From contig NZ_JAHHUL010000001.1 of the NCBI RefSeq assembly GCF_019008365.1, positions 186,001 through 250,000 on the forward strand: DNA of 64,000 bases. Direction: 5' to 3'. This DNA is from Phosphitispora fastidiosa (GTDB lineage: Bacteria > Bacillota > Thermincolia > Thermincolales > UBA2595). The notes below the pieces were generated by a model. The model did not search any database and was not told the DNA's origin. It saw nothing but the letters and a program-made list of their open reading frames with translations. The position numbers and the translations under genes were made by a program. This document shows, in pieces, positions 2,149-45,363 of this stretch (the stretch's first letter is position 1; every line of letters starts with the position of its first letter).

Positions 2149-3612
2149 TCAGCCAACCTCCTCAAGAGTTAGTGTCTCCAGCAGAGCCATGGCTTTATTT
2201 ATGGTTTCCTGATATTCCCTTTCCGGGTCGGAATCGGCAACAATTCCGGCCCCTGCCTGCACATAAGTCATTCCGTTGTGCACCAGGATGGTCCTGATGG
2301 TGATACAGGTATCCATGTTTCCTGTAAAACCAAAATACCCGATAGCCCCGGCATAAACTCCTCTGCGTACGGGTTCCAGTTCCTCAACTATCTCCATGGC
2401 CCGAATTTTGGGCGCTCCGGAAACAGTCCCGGCAGGGAAACAGGCTTTCAGGGCATCAAATACCGTCTTTCCGGGCAGCAGGCGTCCGCTGACAGTTGAC
2501 ACAATGTGCATCACGTGGGAATACCGTTGTACCTCCATAAAGCCATTTATATTAATACTACCATAATCGCAGACCTTCCCCAAGTCATTTCTGCCAAGGT
2601 CTACAAGCATGATGTGTTCAGCTTTTTCCTTCTCGTCTGCCAGCAGTTCGATCCCCAGTGTCTCATCTTCCGCTGCTGTCAAGCCCCTTGGTCTGGTACC
2701 GGCTATAGGACAGGTCTGTACTTGATCGTCTTCCACCCTGACCAGCATCTCCGGGGATGACCCGATGATAACCGTTTCCCCGAAGTTAAGATAATACATG
2801 TATGGCGCCGGGTTTATTGTCCGCAGAGCCCGGTAAATGTCAAAGGGGTCACTCCTGAGCGGTGTTTTCAGCCTCTGGGAAAGCACTACCTGAAAAACAT
2901 CACCGGCCCGGATATATTCTTTGGCCTTTTCAACATGGTTCATAAATTCCTGTTTGGACATATTGGAATCAATTTCACCGGAGCTGCATTTCTTTGCCTG
3001 ACATCTGCCGGTTTTTGCAGGTGCTTTGATGATATTCCGGACATCCCTGATTCTGTTAACGGCATCATTGTATGCAGCTTCAGGTGTTGCTCCCGGCTGG
3101 GTATTGCAGACTATTTTTATCTTGTGCCTGACGTGGTCAAATACCAGCACCAGGCGGGTAATCACAAAATTGCAATCAGGCAGGTCAAGGTCTTTAACCG
3201 TATCTTTGGGGAGATTTTCCAGGTGTCTGACCACATCGTAACCAAAGTAACCGACAGCTCCCCCGTAAAACCTGGGCAGCCCCTCAATTTTAGGCGCCTG
3301 GTAGCGGTCCATTATAAGCTTCAGGATATCCAGCGGGCCCCCGGTGAGCTTCGTCTGAGCGCCATTTTCCTCAACTATTCCGCAGCCATTTTCATACCGG
3401 TAAATCACCATAGGCTCCAGCCCTATAAATGAATACCTGGCGAGGTTTTCGCCACCCTCTACGCTTTCCAGCATATATGTATAATCCTCATGGCAGACCT
3501 TTTTAAAAATGGACACTGTTGTTTCCATATCAACAACCATTTCAGTATAAACGGGAATCAGGTTATATGTCTTACTTAGTTCCAGGTATTCATCACAGCA
3601 AGGATATATCAT
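2149..3612 (-). CDS. trpE: Anthranilate synthase component I
   Basis: TrpE (487 aa from the chosen start) makes anthranilate from chorismate and ammonia supplied by TrpG. The N-terminal domain carries an [16 protein letters not shown] stretch (feedback-site ESxx motif region). The C-terminal chorismate-binding domain shows [50 protein letters not shown] and [13 protein letters not shown]. The upstream in-frame GTG/ATG codons are unlikely because they lie in the terminator leader; ATG at 3612 follows AGGAGGAGAAAGGTGG. It is the first gene of the operon, preceded by an attenuator and an 11-triplet TRAP-type site. Confidence 0.97.
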
Positions 3613-3649: not shown

Positions 3650-3678
3650 AAAAAACCGGTACTCAAATGAGTACCGGT
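3650..3678 (-). terminator. Attenuator terminator in trpE leader
   Basis: Read on the minus strand, a perfect 10-bp stem (ACCGGTACTC / GAGTACCGGT, 4-nt loop ATTT) is followed by six T. It sits only about 40 nt before the trpE start, so it must be conditionally bypassed. The 5' side and loop (ACTCATTT) can instead pair with AGATGAGT at the end of the upstream triplet array (3698-3706), giving a competing antiterminator. Confidence 0.9.
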
Positions 3679-3700
3679 ACATTAACTTTACCCAGCAAAA

Positions 3701-3753
3701 CTCATCTCAGCTCATCTCAGCTCATCTTTTCATTTCTCTGCTCTGCTAAACTA
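3701..3753 (-). promoter_or_regulatory. TRAP-binding site: 11 triplets at 5-nt spacing
   Basis: On the minus strand the leader reads UAG, UAG, GAG, GAG, AUG, AAG, then five GAG, each pair separated by exactly two nt (UU, CA, CA, AA, AA, AU, CU, AU, CU, AU). That is eleven triplets over 53 nt, nine of them (G/U)AG. TRAP (MtrB) is an 11-subunit ring that binds eleven such triplets when loaded with tryptophan. The last triplets also form the antiterminator with the downstream terminator loop, so TRAP binding would free the terminator and stop trp transcription. The mtrB gene itself is not in the window. Confidence 0.9.
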
Positions 3754-3812
3754 AACCTTCTGATAAAGCAACTATTCTAATAAGCAACTGTTCTAAAACT
3801 GCTATTGTATAC

Positions 3813-8757: not shown

Positions 8758-8906
8758 CTCCCCTCTATAGGAATATTATACCATATAGAACCTATGTTCG
8801 GGGAAAATATGTTCACCTTTTAAATAATATAGCAACTTTCGGGGCATTGAGCCCCTCGGTCGCTGTGCCTTATATCCCCATGGCTAAAGCCAGGGGCTTT
8901 ACGGCA

Positions 8907-8960
8907 CTTATGGTAACAGCTATACTTATGGTAACAGCTATACTTATGGTAACAGCTATA
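8907..8960. repeat. 18-bp tandem repeat, three copies
   Basis: CTTATGGTAACAGCTATA occurs three times without change (8907-8924, 8925-8942, 8943-8960). The last copy runs into a conserved core (8943-8998) that is also found at about 37947-38000, so the tandem units look like an expanded piece of that core. Confidence 0.9.
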
Positions 8961-9032: not shown

Positions 9033-9286
9033 ACTCTCCTGCCTCCCGTCTCCTGCCTCCTGACTCCACTCTCCTGCCTCCCGTCTCCCGTCTCCTGCCT
9101 CCCGTCTCCTGACTCCACTCTCCTGACTCCTGTCTCCTGACTCCTGACTCCTGCCTCCACTCTCCTGTCTCCTGTCTCCTGCCTCCTGTCTCCTGCCTCC
9201 TGTCTCCTGACTCCTGACTCCACTCTCCTGTCTCCCGTCTCCCGTCTCCTGACTCCTGCCTCCTGTCTCCTGACTCCCGTCTCCTT
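9033..9286. repeat. Heptamer tandem repeat (about 36 units)
   Basis: About 36 contiguous 7-nt units, nearly all CTCCTGA, CTCCTGC, CTCCTGT, CTCCCGT or CTCCACT, cover the whole tract without a gap. Seven is not a multiple of three, but three units make a 7-codon period, giving an Arg/Glu-rich open frame on the minus strand that I regard as meaningless. Units vary only at positions 4-7. The tract should be polymorphic in length between strains. Confidence 0.92.
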
Positions 9287-45051: not shown

Positions 45052-45363
45052 GTCCGGGAAATGACCCGTGAAATCTAGTGAGATGTTGTATGAGATTTTC
45101 CTTGTACTGACGCCGTTATGAGCCTTGCTGCACAGCGCCGGCAGCAAGGCAGGGAGTCCCCGCCTGTCCGAAGATGGCGAAGACCGCCGGGAAGTTTTGG
45201 CCCGCCAAAACGAGAGGCGGCCATCTTATTAGAATAGCCCAATGAGCCATCGAGTTCGGGGACACTGCCTTGATGCCGCGGGATGTCAGCTCAAGCTCAT
45301 AGGCGGTAGTACGGAAAATCGATACAATAGCTCACCAGATTTCACACGGGTCATTTCCGAGAC
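45052..45363. repeat. Structured inverted repeat, family A copy 2
   Basis: A ~312-nt copy with the same arms as 1427-1589: GGAAATGACCCG, TGAAATCT-GTGAG, TTGTAT, GATTTTCC and GTACT in the left arm (45052-45116) and inverted in the right arm (45305-45363). Both arms differ from copy 1 at the same paired places. The longer centre adds nested stems: GCCTTGCTGC/GCAGCAAGGC, GTTTTGGC/GCCAAAAC, AAGATGGC/GCCATCTT and GTCCCCG/CGGGGAC. The same CTCATAGGCGG precedes the right arm. It ends 4 nt before the stop of the SMR gene at 45368. Confidence 0.82.

Follow-up and report, generated by a model that had tools for sequence, protein, structure and literature searches.

The leader of the trp operon on the minus strand of the window (the whole 64,000-nt stretch of DNA analysed here) is, in every sense that is open to computation, an attenuator of the type bound by the trp RNA-binding attenuation protein, TRAP: binding site, terminator, alternative helix, the gene for the protein (mtrB) and their conservation in relatives were all found by computation. 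On this sequence evidence, we hold with very high confidence that positions 3753 to 3650 would act as a TRAP-controlled transcription attenuator in front of trpE.

Direct reading of the minus strand from 3753 to 3701 gives the predicted TRAP-binding site as TAG-tt-TAG-ca-GAG-ca-GAG-aa-ATG-aa-AAG-at-GAG-ct-GAG-at-GAG-ct-GAG-at-GAG, that is, eleven triplets at an exact 5-nt period with all spacers of 2 nt, comprising in the RNA two UAG, seven GAG, one AUG and one AAG, with (G/U)AG at nine of the eleven positions. A leader of the TRAP attenuator type is expected to have about 9–11 (G/U)AG triplets with spacers of 2–3 nt, and the array falls within these limits. Count, spacing and composition are thus as the sequence-only reading had described them. 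A dynamic-programming scan for eleven (G/U)AG-type triplets gave the array a score of 16.8, whereas none of 30 versions of the 64-kb window simulated with a second-order Markov model exceeded 5.1; the scoring scheme was fixed after the trpE site had been seen and before the dctP and iorA comparisons reported below. The second-best natural score in the window was 8.7, located in a GA-rich tandem repeat, with no other natural score above 8.5, and among the 350-nt regions upstream of the 63 long open reading frames of the window trpE reached 16.8, trpD 5.5 and the third 1.2. The proposal that the off-consensus AUG and AAG mark two half-sites is not supported, because only within the genus are the middle triplets weak: the closest relative shares this weakness, other genera of the family have ordinary GAG or UAG there, and a conserved split of the array was rejected on this ground. 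The additional paired NAG triplets that had been pointed out at 3797–3766 do exist, within an imperfect direct repeat (AGAACAGTTGCTTATT / AGAATAGTTGCTTTAT). Since they have no counterpart before trpE in the closest relative (G002), they are probably not a conserved part of the element and were rejected as a component of the site.

Upstream of the array, a sigma-70-like promoter for the operon (TTGACA, 18 nt, TATATT; minus strand, 3842–3813) matches 11 of the 12 consensus positions and carries TG ahead of the –10 element, and the same promoter precedes trpE in the closest relative. Downstream lies a predicted intrinsic terminator (ACCGGTACTCATTTGAGTACCGGT followed by a T run; 3678–3650), whose 10-bp stem spans 3678–3655, is followed by T5 and has a stability of about –17 kcal/mol. 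The predicted antiterminator is composed of a 5' arm (AGAUGAGU...GCUGG; 3707–3692), which overlaps the last two triplets and emerged from folding of partial transcripts, and a 3' arm (CCGGUACUCAUUU; 3677–3665), which doubles as 5' arm and loop of the terminator; both arms are also seen in the leaders of relatives. The pairing of the array end with the terminator stem, already proposed from the letters, was recovered by folding: AGATGAGT can pair with ACTCATTT, and GCTGG:CCGGT lengthens this helix to 13 bp (–12.4 kcal/mol), an arrangement which relatives' leaders share. The array thus overlaps an antiterminator that, by folding prediction and by comparison with related leaders, is mutually exclusive with the intrinsic terminator.

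Partial transcripts ending at 3664–3660 contain the antiterminator in their predicted fold, and the terminator wins once its 3' arm is transcribed. With the array (3753–3701) held unpaired, mimicking bound TRAP, the predicted fold contains the terminator. Folded without constraints, the full leader likewise has the terminator and not the antiterminator in its minimum-energy structure, and the attenuator model therefore depends on co-transcriptional folding. Shuffle support for the antiterminator in the trpE leader alone is modest (0.01), because its 8-bp core overlaps the low-complexity GAG repeats; combined over leaders it amounts to 3e-8, a value obtained from leaders that are related and hence not independent. 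Across genes and genomes, all but one of at least 38 leaders carry a terminator-like hairpin within 130 nt of the array, usually at a distance of 7–41 nt, and in most trpE and dctP leaders the 5' arm of the terminator contains (A/G)CUC, the complement of GAG(U/C).

The mtrB gene, which the sequence-only reading had named as the homologue to look for, is present in the genome at C21:46520-46717 as an 80-codon open frame, matching PF02081 (TrpBP) with an E-value of 1.8e-40 and 138.9 bits against a curated cut-off of 21.3. In alignment, the protein is closely similar to solved MtrB chains and keeps the EKLDKGEV...SAMKIRGKA core, within which K37, K56 and R58 (B. subtilis numbering) are presumably the residues contacting RNA and tryptophan. 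Among 61 related genomes, mtrB was found in 37 and an array of seven triplets, one mismatch being allowed, in 30, arrays being present in 29 of the 37 genomes with mtrB compared to one of the 24 lacking it (Fisher p 5e-9; the genomes are related and the trials not independent, but the contrast is large). Most relatives with mtrB show the same plan of triplets, antiterminator and terminator before trpE, which bears out the TRAP reading of this leader. A gene for anti-TRAP (rtpA) did not exceed the cut-off anywhere in the genome, the best hit reaching 23.1 bits against 32 and lying inside a 374-aa frame; there is therefore no indication of the additional tRNA-based input known from B. subtilis.

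We propose a model in which scarce tryptophan would leave TRAP inactive, so that AGAUGAGU...GCUGG at the end of the array could pair with CCGGUACUCAUUU; the antiterminator would form and the polymerase would continue into trpEGDCFBA and the downstream aro/tyr genes. With plentiful tryptophan, the Trp-loaded ring of eleven subunits would wrap the triplets and prevent the antiterminator, upon which the 3678–3655 hairpin would form and transcription would stop before trpE. In transcripts that escape, a second TRAP-type site over the ribosome-binding site of trpD would block translation of this gene. TRAP occupancy, the dependence on tryptophan and the effect on trpD are what we infer from the elements described.

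Control of trp operons by T-box elements or leader peptides is common in bacteria, and T-boxes are known before trpE-like genes (PMC2494555), which would make the GAG repeats incidental to a response to uncharged tRNA-Trp or to a Trp-rich leader peptide. We consider this highly improbable here: in the whole 64-kb window neither the T-box nor any other Rfam family attains its gathering score, the trpE leader has no open reading frame with tandem Trp codons, in line with the absence of a Trp-rich peptide from the sequence-only reading, and the genome carries mtrB, with which the repeats co-occur among relatives. T-box, leader peptide or another Rfam element were rejected as the control of trpE, none having been found. 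No more credible is a chance or repeat-derived purine-rich run before a constitutive terminator. GA-rich tandem repeats do occur in the genome, and the one at 9035–9285 is the source of the score of 8.7 in the same scan, but the trpE array lies far above the simulated maximum, its exact register ends on the pairing partner of the terminator, and such arrays are kept before trpE, dctP and salvage-type iorA while absent before paralogues. The repeat at 9285–9035 of the minus strand has periods of 14/21/35 and mimics TRAP triplets, making it a source of false positives, and the hit at 9057–9120 within it was rejected as a TRAP site; an 18-bp tandem repeat lies at 8906–8960. TRAP could also act mainly on translation, as an added mechanism like that of B. 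subtilis, where it hides the trpE Shine–Dalgarno sequence within a downstream hairpin (PMC11255114). Bases before the trpE start do pair when the array is held unpaired, but no dedicated TRAP-dependent Shine–Dalgarno hairpin stands out, and with an obvious and conserved terminator in place we regard translation as a very unlikely main mode and transcription attenuation as the preferred reading.

The controlled operon has the order trpE-G-D-C-F-B-A, followed by aroF-like, tyrA-like and aroA-like genes, as assigned from sequence. trpE (anthranilate synthase component I; minus strand, 3612–2149) most likely starts at the ATG at 3612–3610, which corrects the earlier reading, and a search with this frame returned full-length relatives. 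It is overlapped by trpG (glutamine amidotransferase; 2165–1572), and trpD (anthranilate phosphoribosyltransferase; 1323–277) is the expected target of the second site. This site, GAG UA UAG CU UAG AG GAG GA GAG AU GAG (1351–1324), is a perfect six-triplet match that includes the trpD Shine–Dalgarno sequence and reaches the trpD ATG. Because a Shine–Dalgarno sequence is itself GAG-like, the other gene starts of the operon were taken for comparison; the six-triplet score is 11.4 at the trpD start and at most 2.5 at the others. Several relatives have similar sites near the trpD start, for example TAGaa TAGct GAGat CAGct GAGat TAGct GAGag GAG. Like the TRAP attenuators elsewhere in the genome, the trpD site had been overlooked in the sequence-only reading. 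Between trpG and trpD (1590–1425) lies a multi-copy palindromic element of MITE/REP-like character, with 112 matching pieces in the genome and a predicted hairpin of –85.8 kcal/mol (fold z-score –10). It is found again at about 45057–45358 of the window and outside the window at L110 5945-6250, between dctM and an opine-dehydrogenase-like gene.

In addition to the trpE leader, we found three TRAP-type sites: at the trpD ribosome-binding site, before dctPQM and before iorAB-paaK-trpB2. Five perfect (G/U)AG triplets at a 5-nt period occur in only three places of the 4.09-Mb genome, namely trpE, trpD and C14:97921-97943, a count which refers to fixed-spacing pattern searches, by which sites with uneven spacers are missed. 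A reversed-pattern control says little about GAG-only runs, which match it as well, and simulations, paralogues and the mtrB contingency were used instead. The array on C14 is followed by CCAGCACTCATTTGAGTGCTGGTTTTT and then by genes for a DctP-type binding protein, DctQ and DctM. The leader of iorA, which lies farther along C14 and was read from the sequence since its uneven spacers let it slip through the pattern search, carries TAGaa GAGat GAGt GAGca GAGtt GAG...GAGct GAG and a terminator before iorA, iorB, a paaK-like gene and trpB2. At the start of trpB2 itself only a brief run of GAG is present in this genome, too weak to be claimed as a site; in four relatives (L096, L104, L106, L109) TRAP-type arrays overlap the start of this gene for a TrpB-like PLP enzyme.

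Both leader sites are found again, with terminators, upstream of the orthologous genes in distant anaerobes. When 350-nt upstream regions were scored, each of the nine orthologues sharing about 68% identity or more had the dctP site (scores 9.9–19.2), whereas the 17 more distant homologues all lacked it (at most 2.8; p 2e-5); in a tenth orthologue, from Desulfovirgula, the array stands before paaK, which itself precedes dctP. Ten salvage-type iorA orthologues score 5.4–13.9 compared to –4.2 to 2.1 for 17 paralogues (p 1e-5), among which is the array-less paralogue of the same genome; a relative with an iorA of 56% identity (G058) has no array within reach. A single array leads dctPQM-iorA-iorB-paaK in Desulfofundulus, and Formimonas and K_7_2 have arrays with terminators before a separate paaK; where paaK lies downstream of iorAB it has no array of its own, arrays being found only where it starts a unit. 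TRAP-type sites further precede TrpP-type transporter genes (PF17099) in other relatives and a trpG-pabB-like unit in Desulfovirgula. One relative (L098, G051 C31) has an array with a terminator before genes for a TrpX-like ABC substrate-binding protein and permease, a transporter elsewhere under T-box control. Under TRAP control one would expect such a regulon of tryptophan genes. By analogy with the trpE leader, repression by TRAP is very likely for dctPQM and likely, with somewhat less assurance, for iorAB-paaK-trpB2.

Tripartite TRAP transporters and the RNA-binding protein TRAP have nothing but the acronym in common. The DctP type of the C14 protein is confirmed by NCBIfam TRAP_S1 (127.5 bits, cut-off 50), with DctQ and DctM encoded beside it (dctM 289 bits against 268). 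IorA and IorB pass their equivalog cut-offs (IOR_alpha 813.7 against 650.9, IOR_beta 208.3 against 205.8), and the paaK product, which misses the PaaK equivalog cut-off (438 bits against 646), is by its sequence a PaaK-like aryl-acid CoA ligase. Among solved structures, DctP, whose predicted model has a mean pLDDT of 80.8, is closest to 4n6d (46% identity) and 4nap (43%, Z 37), followed by binders of aromatic acids; we take the ligands in 4pgn, 4pgp and 4nap to be indolepyruvate, indole-3-acetate and D-Trp. The protein in 4nap is Dde_0634, which comes from a different phylum and is reported to bind indole-3-acetate (PMC9973260, PMC9543091). Upstream of the dctP leader lie 2-hydroxyacyl-CoA dehydratase-like and activator-like genes (C14, L110 1-2853), and downstream of dctM an opine-dehydrogenase-like and a 3-hydroxybutyryl-CoA-dehydrogenase-like gene (C14, L110 6328-8402), a pair conserved in Formimonas and K_7_2.

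Judged from homology and gene neighbourhood, our favoured interpretation, held with fair though limited confidence, is that dctPQM and iorAB-paaK-trpB2 import indole-3-acetate and salvage it into tryptophan. DctPQM would take in indole-3-acetate, the PaaK-like ligase would convert it to indoleacetyl-CoA, IorAB would carboxylate this reductively to indolepyruvate, and transamination would yield tryptophan, with TrpB2 perhaps taking up indole; Trp-loaded TRAP would switch off all salvage genes through attenuators of one design. Such repression by tryptophan fits an anabolic role of these genes. We lean, slightly less firmly again, towards extending this to a TRAP regulon of biosynthesis and indole-3-acetate salvage, via attenuators of the same design, in Thermincola-like and other anaerobic Firmicutes.

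The TRAP-controlled dctPQM, iorAB and paaK genes might instead be catabolic, serving the breakdown of tryptophan or aryl acids, since the fermentation of aromatic amino acids also employs indolepyruvate oxidoreductases and aryl-CoA ligases. A second IorA-like gene of this genome lacks a TRAP site, and the dctP orthologue in Bacillales has a catabolic look, standing beside monooxygenase-like, SDR, amidase and dipeptidase-family genes. Attenuation, however, would turn the genes off at high tryptophan, opposite to what breakdown needs, and trpB2 lies in the same cluster as iorAB-paaK, so that we judge catabolism unlikely, while giving it more weight than any of the alternatives for the trpE leader. 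The Bacillales dctPQM orthologues lack a TRAP site and lie beside oxidative genes, and these neighbourhoods suggest that their substrate, too, is aromatic. In Bacillales and Paenibacillus, the site-less dctP (L119, L121, L123, L125-L128, L134) occurs with a monooxygenase-like relative of acyl-CoA dehydrogenases, an SDR, an amidase, a relative of M19 dipeptidases and an unassigned protein of ~120 aa that matches no Pfam family. Together these genes may form an iac-like cluster for the breakdown of aromatic acids.

By sequence and folding, the leader resembles that of the B. subtilis trp operon, with eleven (G/U)AG-type triplets and overlapping antiterminator and terminator before trpE, and the genome likewise encodes an MtrB with a closely similar core. 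In contrast to B. subtilis, the lineage is anaerobic and lies outside Bacillus, trpG is part of the operon, an internal site covers the trpD start and no anti-TRAP gene was found. For a neighbouring locus, the named close relatives are MAGs filed under Thermincola ferriacetica, with protein identities of 95 and 89%, which assigns the window to a Thermincola-like bacterium (Thermincolaceae, Bacillota). TRAP of B. subtilis blocks the starts of trpG, trpP and ycbK (PMC11255114). The predicted site on the trpD ribosome-binding site is placed in the same manner, and the TrpP-type transporter genes with TRAP-type sites in relatives are a parallel to trpP. The targets trpD, dctPQM, iorAB, paaK and trpB2 are, however, absent from those named for B. 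subtilis in that work, and most of the new targets carry transcription attenuators instead of blocked start sites. In the literature searched, which included few subscription papers, we found no report of TRAP control of dctPQM/iorAB/paaK salvage genes and no paper that treats tryptophan and the trp RNA-binding attenuation protein together with TRAP transporters. Gutierrez-Preciado (2005) and Merino (2008) reportedly surveyed trp regulation comparatively, and TRAP leaders in such anaerobes may have been noticed before.

The trpE leader carries a textbook RNA switch into a distant anaerobic lineage, without anti-TRAP as far as our search shows. TRAP sites can be read as a genome-wide label for tryptophan-related genes, which goes beyond homology alone in predicting the substrate of an orphan transporter, an indole acid and probably indole-3-acetate, and in predicting an anabolic direction for a particular set of IorAB and aryl-CoA ligase. 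If this holds true, the plant hormone indole-3-acetate would be re-used as a source of tryptophan under feedback control by an RNA-binding ring, which is apparently new.
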